Source of the DNA: an uncultured Alphaproteobacteria bacterium
Lineage (GTDB): Bacteria > Pseudomonadota > Alphaproteobacteria > RF32 > CAG-239
Reading direction: 5' to 3'
Assembly: GCA_944390915.1 (NCBI GenBank)
Contig: CALXRS010000012.1
Span: 1-59,190, forward strand
Length of the DNA stretch: 59,190 nt
Positions 41,654-50,787 of this stretch are shown piece after piece; position 1 is the first letter of the stretch; each line of letters starts with the position of its first letter. A model generated the notes under the pieces. It was given only the letters and a program-made list of their open reading frames with translations. It was not told where the DNA came from and searched no databases. The position numbers and the translations under genes were made by a program.

Positions 41654-42349
41654 TTATTTATATTTTTTTGCAGAATTCTTTTTCCGCGTAACTGCATTCC
41701 AACATCTGCGGCAACACTGCTTCCAGGTATATCCGTAACCGGAAATCATCTTATTAAAAACCGGCGGATTTATAAGCCAGTCCATGACCGGATCGGGATG
41801 CGTCAAATATTCTATTTCGACAATATCCAGCGTCGGCGTTTTACAGACAAATTCAAAACCTTTTCTCTTGGTGTCAAAATGCATGTATAAGAGTTTGATT
41901 TTCTTTGACGGATACAATTTCCGCAAGCGTGAAAGCAAACTTTCCAACTCTGTCGAAGAAAGAGAAAACTTCCTGTTGTTGGCAACAAATAAAATGCTTT
42001 TGGCTTTGCCTATCATCTTGAGCAAACGGGAAATCCGCCGTTGATACTTCCGATTAACGGCCTCAAAATCCCGTGACGGTTCTTCATGCACAAAATCATG
42101 ATAAAACATGATGCCGTTCGGCATGGCAAAGCGATGAAAATGGCTTCCGGCCGGACAGGGAAGCGGCTCCAGCCGTTCTAACGTCAGAAAATCTCTGAAA
42201 TTATCTTCCAGCATTCGGCAGGCTACAAGCGGATTAATTACCAACCAGTCAAAGGGGAGACTTTCATCCTGAAGTCCGCAGTTCCGCAAATGCCAACTGG
42301 TTGCGCAATTGCTGCCCAGCGGAATGATTGCATCAAATCTCTCTTTCAT
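41654..42349 (-). CDS. DUF1796-type putative papain-like cysteine peptidase
   Basis: The N-terminus of this 231-residue protein, IIPLGSNCATSWHLRNCGLQDESLPFDWLV, is the signature of DUF1796 proteins. It contains the proposed catalytic Cys (about 15) and the PFDW motif. Later HFHRFAMPNGIMFYHDFVHE supplies candidate His residues. These proteins often sit in surface-polysaccharide regions, and their activity is unproven. The C-terminus is very basic (WNAVTRKKNSAKKYK). There is no signal peptide, so it should be cytoplasmic. Confidence 0.75.
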   Translation of the reverse strand: MKERFDAIIPLGSNCATSWHLRNCGLQDESLPFDWLVINPLVACRMLEDNFRDFLTLERLEPLPCPAGSHFHRFAMPNGIMFYHDFVHEEPSRDFEAVNRKYQRRISRLLKMIGKAKSILFVANNRKFSLSSTELESLLSRLRKLYPSKKIKLLYMHFDTKRKGFEFVCKTPTLDIVEIEYLTHPDPVMDWLINPPVFNKMISGYGYTWKQCCRRCWNAVTRKKNSAKKYK

Positions 42350-46619: not shown

Positions 46620-46906
46620 CCACTCCGACGACCATATTTTTGTCCCTGCCCTCACGCGGCACGACAGTTTTTGACGTAAGCGTGTTTTATAAAAACCTCA
46701 TAACCGTTGCGGTGCCAAACTTCTCCTTCACTTACCTTACAAAACAACCCGGCGCCGCAGCGGTTATCTTTTTTCCTTATAAATACACCTTTCTCCCGAC
46801 GGTAAAACTTTGTATTTTCCTTGTCGGATGCTGCAAGTCGCGGCAAAAATTTTCGGGTATTCTTAAAACATTTATTTTTTATACAACTTTAACGAACGGA
46901 AAAAGT
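46620..46906. other. 287-bp gap between bamE and the invertase
   Basis: No gene is supported, although an open frame runs in phase with the invertase. It holds a long imperfect inverted repeat (46701–46716 and 46751–46766) followed by six T, which is probably the bamE terminator with a large loop. Near the invertase start lies AACGAACGG (46891–46899), resembling part of the recombination core at 47512–47521. A clear promoter for the invertase was not found. Confidence 0.5.
46701..46774 (+). terminator. Probable terminator with a 34-base loop after bamE
   Basis: TAACCGTTGCGGTGCC pairs with GGCGCCGCAGCGGTTA (14 of 16 Watson–Crick, two G·U) and is followed by TCTTTTTT. The loop is unusually large, so another role such as a second recombination or protein-binding site is not excluded. 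Confidence 0.5.
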
Positions 46907-47512
46907 ATGATATACGGATATATTCGCGTAAGCACCGATAAGCAGACTGCTGAAAACCAGCGGTTTGAAATCAAAAAATTCTGCAAAGGCCAAAAGATAA
47001 AAACCGACCGCTGGATTGAAGAAACCATCAGCGGCGCCAAAGATTTTGAAAAAAGAAAACTCGGGTTCCTAATTAAGAACCTGAAAAAGAGAGATCTTAT
47101 CATTTGTACGGAAATTTCCCGCCTTGGGCGCAATCTTTTTCAGATTATGCAGATTCTAAACCTGTGCATGCAAAAGGAGGCAAAAATTTGGACAATAAAA
47201 GACAACTACCAGCTGGGCGCCGATCTGCAAAGCAAGGTTTTGGCCTTTGCTTTTGCCTTAGCGGCGGAAATTGAACGCAGCCTTATCAGCGAAAGAACCC
47301 GAGAAGCCCTGGAGCGGCTCAAGGCCGACGGCCGAAAACTCGGACGCCGGTTCGGCTGCAAAAACAAAAAACATATTTTGGACGGCAGGGAGCCGGAGAT
47401 TCTCCGCCTCTATGAAAACGGCATGCCGAAAACCCGGATTGCCCGCATGTTCGGCGTAAGCATCAGGACGATTTACAATTTTATTGTCGCGGCCAAACAT
47501 GGGAAAATCTAA
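46907..47512 (+). CDS. Mpi-type serine DNA invertase
   Basis: This protein has 201 residues from ATG 46907; the longer frame is not preferred because the family begins MIYGYIRVS. Ser9 in YIRVSTDKQTAENQ is the nucleophile; SRLGRNLFQIMQIL and the long E-helix FALAAEIERSLISERTREALERLKADGRKLGRRFG follow. The C-terminal HTH is EILRLYENGMPKTRIARMFGVSIRTIYNFI. The overall pattern is that of the master invertase Mpi group known from Bacteroides and other gut bacteria. Its last codons lie in the left inverted repeat of the element it should invert. No Fis or enhancer site is seen. Confidence 0.9.
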   Translation: MIYGYIRVSTDKQTAENQRFEIKKFCKGQKIKTDRWIEETISGAKDFEKRKLGFLIKNLKKRDLIICTEISRLGRNLFQIMQILNLCMQKEAKIWTIKDNYQLGADLQSKVLAFAFALAAEIERSLISERTREALERLKADGRKLGRRFGCKNKKHILDGREPEILRLYENGMPKTRIARMFGVSIRTIYNFIVAAKHGKI

Positions 47513-47528
47513 CGAACGTTTGTTTTAC
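47502..47528 (+). repeat. Left inverted repeat (IRL) of the invertible element
   Basis: This 27-bp repeat begins GGAAAATCTAACGAACGTTT and is identical to the reverse complement of 47621–47647. It contains the invertase stop codon (47510–47512), so the protein end is the same in both orientations because the repeat itself is preserved. Confidence 0.95.
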
Positions 47529-47592
47529 CGACTATTTTGCCGGTTGTTTCATCAATCAGATCACCTTGTTTTTCCGGTGCTTACAAATTTTA

Positions 47593-47621
47593 TTGCCAAA
47601 AGTGATATCCTAAAGTATAAG
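47593..47621 (+). promoter_or_regulatory. Promoter inside the invertible segment: TTGCCA-N17-TATAAG
   Basis: Five of six bases match consensus in each hexamer, with the optimal 17-base spacing. It is identical in hexamers and spacing to the rpmI operon promoter (21732–21760). In the present orientation it faces the wecE-like gene. Confidence 0.85.
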
Positions 47622-47647
47622 TAAAACAAACGTTCGTTAGATTTTCC
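47621..47647 (-). repeat. Right inverted repeat (IRR) of the invertible element
   Basis: The 27-bp repeat begins GTAAAACAAACGTTCGTTAG on the plus strand. Its first base is the last base of the −10 hexamer. The flanking bases on both sides differ from IRL, so 27 bp is the exact limit of identity. Confidence 0.95.
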
Positions 47648-47712
47648 ATCCCGTCGACGGAGCGGAATGCGACGGACGCAAGAAACGTTTTGTTTTGCTG
47701 TCGGAGAAAAAA

Positions 47713-48843
47713 ATGATATGCTTTAACAAACCGGCGCATACCGCCCGAACGACGGAATATATTGCCGATGTTTTTCGCGAGGCTCATGCTTCGGGCGACG
47801 GGAAATATACCCGTTTATGCCATCAATATTTTAAGGACATGCTCAAATGCCGGCAGGCGCTTTTGGTGCATTCCGGCACCGCGGCGCTGGAAATGGCCGC
47901 CATGCTGGCTGAACTCAAACCCGGCGACGAAGTAATCATGCCTTCATACACTTTTTGCTCCACGGCCAACGCTTTCGTCTTACAAGGAGCCGTGCCCGTT
48001 TTTGTTGACATCCGCGAAGACACGCTCAATATTGACGAAAACAAAATCGAGGCGGCCATTACCGACAAAACCCGGGCAATCGTTCCCGTACATTATGCCG
48101 GCGTGGCCTGCGAAATGGACACCATCAAAGACATTGCCCGCAGACACAATCTGCTGGTTATTGAAGATGCGGCACAGGCTTTTGATTCCTTTTACAAAGG
48201 AAAGCCGCTCGGCTGTATCGGCGATATGGGCTGTTTCAGTTTTCATGAGACAAAAAACATTATGTCCGGCGAGGGCGGGCTCTTCGTAACCGACAACGAA
48301 GAACTGGCCGAACGGGCGGAAATCGTGCGCGAAAAAGGAACCAACCGCAGCAAATTTTTCCGCGGTCAGGTCGACAAATACACCTGGGTGGACAAAGGCT
48401 CTTCCTATTTGCCGAGCGACATTGTCGGCGCCTATCTGTATTCTGTTTTGGAGATTGCCGACAACATTCAGAACAGGCGCAAAAAAATATGGGAAAAATA
48501 TTATCTTGCTTTTGCCGAAGCGGAACAAAGCGGCAAAGTCCGCCGGCCGATAATTCCCAATGAGTGCACCAACAATGCCCATATGTTCTATCTGTTGTGC
48601 CGATCTCTCGAAGAACGCAGCGCCTTTATCGCCCGACTGCGGGAAAACGGCATTTACGCGCCTTTTCACTATATTCCGCTTCACTCTTCGCCGGCGGGGA
48701 AAAAATTCTGCCGCACGGCTTCGCCGATGACGGTAACGGATAAAGTTTCCGATTGTTTGGTACGGCTGCCTCTGTTTTATGATCTAAGCGCCGAGCAACA
48801 GGACTATGTTATTGAAAAATCTATTGAATTCTGGAAAGAATAA
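47713..48843 (+). CDS. wecE: WecE/RffA-like sugar-nucleotide 4-aminotransferase
   Basis: This protein has 376 residues from ATG 47713 (GGAGA five bases upstream). It matches E. coli WecE closely: GDEVIMPSYTFCSTANAFVLQGAVPVFVDIR, VPVHYAGVACEMDTI, GCFSFHETKN with the PLP-binding Lys181, EIVREKGTNRSKFFRGQVDKYTWVDKGSSYL and NAHMFYLL. The known reaction adds an amino group to dTDP-4-keto-6-deoxy-glucose to give dTDP-Fuc4N, with Glu as donor. It is the first gene after the invertible promoter and overlaps the next gene by one base (TAATG). Confidence 0.9.
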   Translation: MICFNKPAHTARTTEYIADVFREAHASGDGKYTRLCHQYFKDMLKCRQALLVHSGTAALEMAAMLAELKPGDEVIMPSYTFCSTANAFVLQGAVPVFVDIREDTLNIDENKIEAAITDKTRAIVPVHYAGVACEMDTIKDIARRHNLLVIEDAAQAFDSFYKGKPLGCIGDMGCFSFHETKNIMSGEGGLFVTDNEELAERAEIVREKGTNRSKFFRGQVDKYTWVDKGSSYLPSDIVGAYLYSVLEIADNIQNRRKKIWEKYYLAFAEAEQSGKVRRPIIPNECTNNAHMFYLLCRSLEERSAFIARLRENGIYAPFHYIPLHSSPAGKKFCRTASPMTVTDKVSDCLVRLPLFYDLSAEQQDYVIEKSIEFWKE

Positions 48844-50198
48844 TGTTTTTTACCGGTTGGAAAAATAATAAATTTCAAATACTTGGCATTTCTCTTGCAA
48901 AAATAAAAGCCAAGGGTGACAAACTGAGCTTTTATTTGTTCGGAATTTTTCCGTATCGAAAAAAAGACCGCCTGGCCAACGTTGTTTGCCGTCTGAAAGA
49001 CAACAAAGATTTTGACGTTTCCGCCTTCGACCGGGAACTGGAAACTTTTGTTCCGGCAAAAAACGAAAGAAAACCGCAAACACCCGACAAACGCAAAGTC
49101 GCTTATATTGCCTCGGCCTTATACACCAACGGCGGCCATACAAAATGCCTTTGTTCGCTGGCAAAATCTTTGGCCGACGTTTATACGGAAAAAGTATTTT
49201 TAAGCCGGATCAACTCCTCCGCGCCTTCAGTTATCCGGGAAATCAAGCAATATGCCGAAGTCGGCGGGACGGAATACAATCTTTGGCGGGCTCGTTTTTT
49301 GGCTCGCAAACTGGCCGCGCAGATTGCGGATTTTAATCCGCGGGCGCTGATGGTTTACATCCACCCGAACGACGTTATCGGCACCATGGCGCTGGCGCTT
49401 ATAAAAAAAACAACAAATATAAAGATTGTTTATTTCAACCACGCTTCGCATTTTCCCGCTCTCGGAATGAGCTTTGCCGATGTTATTCTTGAAGGAATGC
49501 CGTCCACAAAAAAAATAACCGAAGAAAAGAGACATTTCCACAATTGTCGGATTGTCGGCCTGCAGTCGCGCGCCAAAGACGAAACCGTTTATTATTCCCC
49601 GGCGGACAAAAAGAAGGAGCGGGAAAAACTGGGCGTTTGTCCGGACGAATATCTCACCATGAGCGGCGGCACCAGCTATAAATTTTTTGACGACGACGGA
49701 TCGGCCTATTTTGCCATGATAAAAAATCTGTTGCTCAAGGAACCGAAACTGAAACATATTGTCGTGACCGAACTCTCGCCGACGCAGAAAAAAATCGTCA
49801 AAAATATTTTTGCGGAAGAAACTCAGGCGGAAAAACGCCTGCTTTTTGCGGCGCCGCGTCCCGATTTTGACCTTTTGTTTCAATGCGCGGATGTTTTTAT
49901 CGACAGTTTTCCCGTATCTTCGGCCTTAACTCAAATAGATTTGATGCGCAACCAGGTTGCATCCGTCGTCAAGATAAACCGCGAGCGGCCGGAGTTTTCG
50001 TTTCACGAATATCAAATGCCCGACTATCCGTATATGTTTGACAACGCCGAAGATATGGAAAAGGCCGTTTCGGAATTGCTGCACAACGAAAACAAACGCC
50101 GAAAAATTATTGCCGAAAATTATGACTACTGGCTAAAAACGTATGAAAGCAACATTGTTAAGAAAAAATATATCAACATTATCGAAGAAAATGATTGA
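48843..50198 (+). CDS. GT-B fold glycosyltransferase-like protein
   Basis: This 451-residue protein has an N-terminal half with KVAYIASALYTNGGHTKCLCSLAKSL (about 82–107), a Rossmann start with a Gly-rich loop typical of GT-B enzymes. Then come YIHPNDVIGTMALALI and VYFNHASHFPALGMSFADVILEG. The C-terminal half has ELSPTQKKIVK, RLLFAAPRPDFDLLFQCADVFIDSFPVSSALTQIDLM, like the donor-binding part of family 1/4 or 41-type transferases. No membrane helix. It probably transfers the amino-sugar made by the neighbouring enzymes. It is coupled to both neighbours by overlaps. Confidence 0.75.
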   Translation: MFFTGWKNNKFQILGISLAKIKAKGDKLSFYLFGIFPYRKKDRLANVVCRLKDNKDFDVSAFDRELETFVPAKNERKPQTPDKRKVAYIASALYTNGGHTKCLCSLAKSLADVYTEKVFLSRINSSAPSVIREIKQYAEVGGTEYNLWRARFLARKLAAQIADFNPRALMVYIHPNDVIGTMALALIKKTTNIKIVYFNHASHFPALGMSFADVILEGMPSTKKITEEKRHFHNCRIVGLQSRAKDETVYYSPADKKKEREKLGVCPDEYLTMSGGTSYKFFDDDGSAYFAMIKNLLLKEPKLKHIVVTELSPTQKKIVKNIFAEETQAEKRLLFAAPRPDFDLLFQCADVFIDSFPVSSALTQIDLMRNQVASVVKINRERPEFSFHEYQMPDYPYMFDNAEDMEKAVSELLHNENKRRKIIAENYDYWLKTYESNIVKKKYINIIEEND

Positions 50199-50787
50199 AA
50201 AGCGACAAATAAAAAACGAACTTATTCCCTTTGCCGAAATTGACGACGATTTGCAGATGCAAACGCGCGAATGGCGAAATTCGCCCGAAGTGGCCGAATA
50301 TTTCAAAATTCCCCATATTTCCGTCGAAACCCACAAAAAATGGCTGGCCGGAATGAAAACCGAACACCCCGACCATATTGCCTTTCTGCTTCGGAGCAAC
50401 GGACAAAACGCGGGCGTAACCTATTTTCATTCACTTGATCGACAAAACGCCCGGGGCGACTGGGGCATCTACGTTTATCCGCCGGAATTTCGCCACCGCG
50501 GAATCGGTCATTTTGCCCTTACCGCCTGTATCAATTATGCCCAAGACAAATTAAAACTTGAGGAACTTTTCCTTGACGTCATGGAAAACAACTCGGCCGC
50601 CGTTCGCCTGTATGAAAGCATGGGTTTCGTGCCGACCGGCGAAAAAGACGGACGTTTTTTGCGCTACCGACTGAAACTGAACCCGCTTTCCGCCTCGACG
50701 GAAAAAAAGAAAACAAGCTCTCGAACAGAGAGCAGACGGGACACACCGCCGGTCATTTTTTCTCGTACCAGTCAGCCGGCCGGATAA
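50191..50787 (+). CDS. WecD/PseH-like GNAT N-acetyltransferase for an amino-sugar nucleotide
   Basis: This protein has 198 residues from ATG 50191, which overlaps the transferase stop by eight bases. The GNAT core includes QTREWRNSPEVAEYFKIPHISVETHKKWLAGM, the PseH-like opening. GDWGIYVYPPEFRHRGIGHFALTACINYAQ is the acetyl-CoA loop, RHRGIG, and MENNSAAVRLYESMGFVPTGE closes it. It should acetylate the 4-amino sugar made by the WecE-like enzyme. The last 35 residues (after RYRLKLNP) are basic, lack the fold, and run into the terminator and 3' end of the converging WYL gene. Confidence 0.85.
   Translation: MIEKRQIKNELIPFAEIDDDLQMQTREWRNSPEVAEYFKIPHISVETHKKWLAGMKTEHPDHIAFLLRSNGQNAGVTYFHSLDRQNARGDWGIYVYPPEFRHRGIGHFALTACINYAQDKLKLEELFLDVMENNSAAVRLYESMGFVPTGEKDGRFLRYRLKLNPLSASTEKKKTSSRTESRRDTPPVIFSRTSQPAG
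50702..50733 (-). terminator. Terminator of the WYL gene, inside the GNAT coding region
   Basis: Leftward GCTCTC, TGTTC, GAGAGC, then TTGTTTTCTTTTTTT. It lies in the last 90 bases of the GNAT gene on the other strand. Confidence 0.75.

Follow-up and report, generated by a model that had tools for sequence, protein, structure and literature searches.

Organization of the locus

A short stretch of DNA lies between a DNA invertase gene and a putative glycan operon in the genome of an uncultured alphaproteobacterium, and raises the question of whether it is a promoter that is turned around in place and, if so, by which enzyme. The window denotes here the whole stretch of DNA that was analysed (59,190 nucleotides), and coordinates without a contig name refer to it (Table 1). 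We are highly confident that the locus is a phase-variation switch, in which an Mpi-type invertase flips a 92-bp promoter segment controlling the glycan operon.

Table 1. Features of the switch, of its neighbouring genes and of two further inverted pairs on contigs C31 and C6 of the same genome.
Feature	Location	Strand	Remark
Mpi-family serine DNA invertase, 201 aa	46907..47512	+	stop codon within left repeat
Left inverted repeat	47502..47528	+	two half-sites around central AA (47515-47516); pattern match without mismatch
Invertible spacer without gene	47529..47620		92 bp
-35 element TTGCCA	47593..47598	+	invertible promoter (predicted); TTGCAA in L044 and L096
-10 element TATAAG	47616..47621	+	abuts right repeat
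Right inverted repeat	47621..47647	-	central TT (47633-47634)
WecE-type dTDP-4-amino-4,6-dideoxy sugar transaminase	47713..48843	+	first operon gene; PRK11706 587.8 bits, cut-off 375
451-aa protein, family unassigned	48843..50198	+	beside WecE-type gene in all relatives read
GNAT N-acetyltransferase (PseH-like)	50191..50787	+	TIGR03585 95.7 bits, cut-off 93.1
Second inverted pair	C31:1385-1550		precedes DUF1796 gene
Third inverted pair	C6:34198-34352		precedes 2130-aa autotransporter

The invertase comprises a Resolvase domain and a helix-turn-helix (HTH_7/HTH_23), and its nearest solved structures are those of DNA-invertases and Tn3/gamma-delta resolvases. It matches NF009949 ('master DNA invertase Mpi family', PRK13413) with 280.5 bits, above the cut-off of 272, which bears out the first-pass annotation of the gene as an Mpi-type serine invertase. 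The catalytic residues R7, S9, R72 and R75 are present and are invariant across 28 relatives. The genome harbors six Resolvase-domain genes, including three of Mpi type (in the window and on contigs C2 and C1) and three others. No inverted repeat was found adjoining the C2 and C1 Mpi-type invertases. The C1 invertase (L015:5622-6212; G000 C1:73621) adjoins restriction-modification-like genes, and a three-mismatch site is localized 68 bp upstream of it (C1:73528-73553), for which an inverted partner was not found.

The first-pass annotation had described perfect 27-bp inverted repeats bounding 92 bp, and the two arms are indeed complementary at 27 of 27 positions. Shuffled versions of the region reach a maximum of 10 paired bases, and no further exact 27-bp inverted pair with a spacing of ≤500 bp occurs in the 59 kb window, so the earlier view that a chance origin is negligible holds. 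The invertase stop (TAA, 47510-47512) was correctly placed inside the left repeat, and the spacer is empty of genes, as had been claimed. Since the arms are identical, inversion would leave the invertase reading frame with the same 3' end. Each repeat is a near-palindrome of 12+2+12 architecture, GAAAATCTAACG AA CGTTTGTTTTAC. Both arms contain the core AAACGTTCGTT, in agreement with ARACGTTCGTN, the Mpi site of Bacteroides fragilis as quoted in PMC8375218. The symmetry of the site, together with what holds for other serine recombinases, points to the two central bases as the probable crossover.

The operon begins 65 bp past the right repeat; invertase, switch and presumptive target are thus directly adjacent, as first proposed. 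The transaminase also matches TIGR02379 (542.4 bits, cut-off 434.85). The starts of the second and third glycan genes overlap the preceding gene, an operon-like arrangement. The second gene product has no match in Pfam, NCBIfam or PDB. Its gene and that of the transaminase also form a pair in eight other genomes (L103-L110), where no Mpi-type repeat was found near the pair in the short stretches read. Control of this pair by a switch thus seems to have been acquired here.

The predicted promoter

The segment had been said to carry a good promoter, a claim that stands for the presence of a conserved promoter and fails for its quality taken alone. The two elements are separated by 17 bp and score 8.4, by themselves no better than shuffles (95th percentile 8.7), and a stock consensus promoter scan did not include them among its calls. 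Of 27 switches, 7 carry a promoter of the form TTGNNN-16/18-TATAAR whose -10 element abuts an arm, where 0.23 would be expected and 1000 shuffles reach at most 2; TATAA hexamers near arms alone show a weak excess (7 versus 3.67). The predicted promoter is therefore credible because it is conserved in the switches of relatives, not because of its own score.

Among switches beside invertases, the conserved promoter points toward the operon in the window and in L036, and toward the invertase in L032, L035, L040 and L044. The assemblies thus sample both orientations, corresponding to the putative ON and OFF states. The Bacteroides -7 box TAnnTTTG was not found in the spacer, which has a TTG/TATAAG promoter instead, and the element is for this reason not classed as a Bacteroides PS promoter. 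No terminator was called on the + strand between the invertase and the operon, so the OFF state may be leaky.

Invertase loci in related genomes

Within the family, 109 of 152 genomes contain a relative of the invertase at E ≤ 1e-40; matches over the family cut-off are present in 11 of 385 genomes drawn evenly from the whole class. In 16 of 29 relatives' loci, including two doubtful ones (L043, L053), an inverted repeat that exceeds all 20 shuffles of its region follows the invertase stop at a distance of no more than about 350 bp. Most of these repeats carry a ACGNACGT-like core. Of the loci of the two closest named relatives, L027 ends shortly past the site and L028 inside the invertase gene; together they display one conserved left site. 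Polysaccharide genes usually follow the repeats, and the ten downstream genes that were scanned comprise six family-2 glycosyltransferases, two nucleotidyltransferases, one epimerase and one GNAT. A surface protein takes the place of the glycan genes in L073 and L074, and L075-L077 lack a glycan operon in the same direction as the invertase.

Further switches in the genome

We performed a search of the whole genome with the pattern GNAAAWNWAACGNNCGTTWNWTTTNC, an inventory by pattern only that would miss switches with other sites. Without mismatch, the pattern occurs at six sites, all of them in three inverted pairs; the reversed pattern, as a control, gave five matches at ≤3 mismatches and none at ≤1. 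Among viral contigs, an exact search for the site gave no match. The window, C31 and C6 elements have their arms in common and differ in their interiors. The protein behind the C31 switch (L012:583-1344, minus strand) is a DUF1796 protein (putative papain-like peptidase), and another such protein is encoded in the window (41657-42349, minus strand). The 2130-aa protein behind the C6 switch has an autotransporter beta-domain (100.1 bits) in its last 300 residues.

Two related genomes, G018 (97% complete) and G046 (100%), each contain one Resolvase-domain gene at E ≤ 1e-8, in a survey confined to genes with this domain. G018 harbors five inverted site pairs, in part with imperfect arms, and G046 two, one of which lies on a contig other than that of the invertase and has the same promoter. 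The enzymes are 70% (G018) and 66% (G046) identical to the window invertase, and the sites are closely related. A single Resolvase-domain gene together with five or two switches indicates that this type of invertase probably also acts in trans. By analogy, the window enzyme, one of three Mpi-type candidates here, probably serves the C31 and C6 switches too. Some central dinucleotides in L092 and L093 (G018) and in L098 (G054) are self-complementary (AT, TA, GC) and would leave the direction of rejoining unfixed on their own.

The segment might also be flipped by another recombinase, either the C2 or C1 Mpi-type enzyme or a larger serine recombinase, with the neighbouring invertase being incidental. 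The genome offers candidates for this role, with its three Mpi-type and six Resolvase-domain genes, but about half of the loci read in relatives again have repeats next to the invertase, neither the C2 nor the C1 gene adjoins a repeat, and both single-recombinase genomes carry related sites along with close relatives of the window enzyme. We thus regard this alternative as improbable, and retain the neighbouring invertase as the probable enzyme of the switch.

Inversion between genomes

Comparison of related loci revealed homologous segments that are inverted with breakpoints at the repeats, which supports the earlier identification of the structure as that of a phase switch. The flanks of L050 (G098) and L054 (G100) are collinear, with 100% identity over the first 37 bp and 86% behind, whereas the arm-to-arm stretch 25-207 aligns reversed with 89.6% identity. 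In-silico inversion raises the identity of L050 to L054 from 246/351 to 296/331 and that of L050 to L056 from 212/363 to 231/344; L054 and L056 agree as assembled. Between L048 (G084) and L049 (G054), 213 bp are inverted beside a flank of 95% identity. The boundaries in the first 265 bp past the invertase of this pair are complex, which suggests three sites and nested inversions, not one simple pair. The L044 element of G046 gives a modest signal against the window element (78 in reverse, 59 as is, null maximum 74), and carries the window promoter in reverse as TTGCAA-17-TATAAG. By these comparisons, the window copy probably inverts as well.

These inversions also bear on static readings of the repeats. 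Lying where a gene ends, the long complementary arms could form a hairpin in the transcript, as a terminator or attenuator, or could be an autoregulatory operator of the invertase, and recombinases can double as repressors. Yet a hairpin would enclose a 92-nt loop, there is no T-run and no + strand terminator call, and neither a hairpin nor an operator accounts for homologous segments that lie in opposite orientation in different relatives and break at the arms; a static segment is thus very unlikely. A MITE-like non-autonomous insertion with terminal inverted repeats, to which the small size and perfect repeats of the element would be suited, is barely conceivable given that the three elements of the genome have only arms in common and not the interior, that the flanks show no target-site duplication, and that relatives keep this location downstream of the invertase.

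Proposed mechanism

In the switch that we propose, the Mpi-type invertase would bind both inverted 27-bp sites and pair them, cut at the central dinucleotide, rotate and rejoin the ends, and thereby turn the 92-bp segment around. The assembled orientation would be ON, with the promoter directed rightward and predicted to transcribe the transaminase-unknown-acetyltransferase operon. The operon product might be an N-acetylated 4-amino-4,6-dideoxy sugar that would be attached to a surface glycan. In the inverted, OFF orientation, the promoter is predicted to run into the invertase gene from its 3' end, in antisense. The same enzyme would probably flip the switches ahead of the 2130-aa autotransporter (C6) and the DUF1796 gene (C31).

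Comparison with known systems

The fim switch of Escherichia coli comprises a promoter segment beside a recombinase gene, is inverted by tyrosine recombinases and controls fimbriae. A flipped promoter would run back into the recombinase gene in both systems, whereas the switch described here has a serine invertase and glycan genes. Hin/Gin-type DNA invertases act on sites of the 26-bp type with a central dinucleotide, and a recombinational enhancer bound by Fis is characteristic of them. They are small serine recombinases like the window enzyme, as its nearest solved structures reflect, but here the invertase gene lies outside the segment and belongs to a different family model.

By the tests made, the system is a member of the Mpi family of invertible-promoter systems and thus of a known kind. 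In B. fragilis, the master invertase Mpi is linked to capsule promoters (Coyne et al. 2003, as cited in PMC8375218 and PMC4747536). The two systems share the NF009949 family, the core site and a small promoter-bearing segment ahead of surface-polysaccharide genes, and probably also several switches per recombinase; the three switches here come with three Mpi-type genes. They differ in the host, alphaproteobacterial here, in the promoter, sigma-70-like with the -10 element abutting the repeat in place of the Bacteroides -7 box (PMC4747536), in the placement of one switch directly 3' of the invertase gene, and in number, with three switches found here and 13 regions in B. fragilis. The order of recombinase gene, promoter and polysaccharide operon is that of B. 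fragilis Tsr19/BF2766, a tyrosine recombinase that inverts a distant promoter as well as one lying just 3' of its gene and ahead of a polysaccharide operon (PMC4747536).

The host class appears to be new for Mpi-type invertible-promoter systems. In one survey, none of 4 Alphaproteobacteria showed inversion signatures (PMC5903667), and no description of such a switch in this class was found among the papers searched, though the Jiang 2019 catalogue may mention Alphaproteobacteria. If our reading is correct, surface sugars are varied in uncultured members of this alphaproteobacterial family by the enzyme family that Bacteroides uses, acting at nearly the same DNA site. The common enzyme family and site would then point to horizontal transfer, or to hosts, phages or immunity exerting the same selection on both groups; one relative originates from roe-deer rumen.

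Resolvase-like paralogues and degenerate sites

Resolvase-like paralogues are found by Mpi-type invertases in several relatives (L067:7311-7886, minus strand; L069:2920-3504, L070:2887-3477 and L072:2985-3749, plus strand; and others), where they either open the switched operon or diverge from the invertase gene. The cleanly read copies have lost R7 and both RLGR arginines, and mostly the serine as well, whereas 28 of 28 Mpi-type relatives keep these residues. Judging from these substitutions, the paralogues are catalytically dead copies, which perhaps act as regulators. A search for them gave matches in 40 of 152 family genomes, the weakest matches being the Mpi-type genes themselves. We tentatively raise, as an extension that we consider doubtful, a self-regulating module in which the antisense OFF promoter would damp flipping, the dead invertase copies of many relatives would exert feedback on the operon or on inversion itself, and phase variation of surface glycans, with control built in, would extend across this family of small-genome Alphaproteobacteria.

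Two degenerate site-like sequences were also observed in the window, GCAAGAAACGTTTTGTTTTGC between the right repeat and the operon (47680-47701) and AACTTTAACGAACG directly 5' of the invertase start (46885-46898). They are possibly decayed or regulatory sites.
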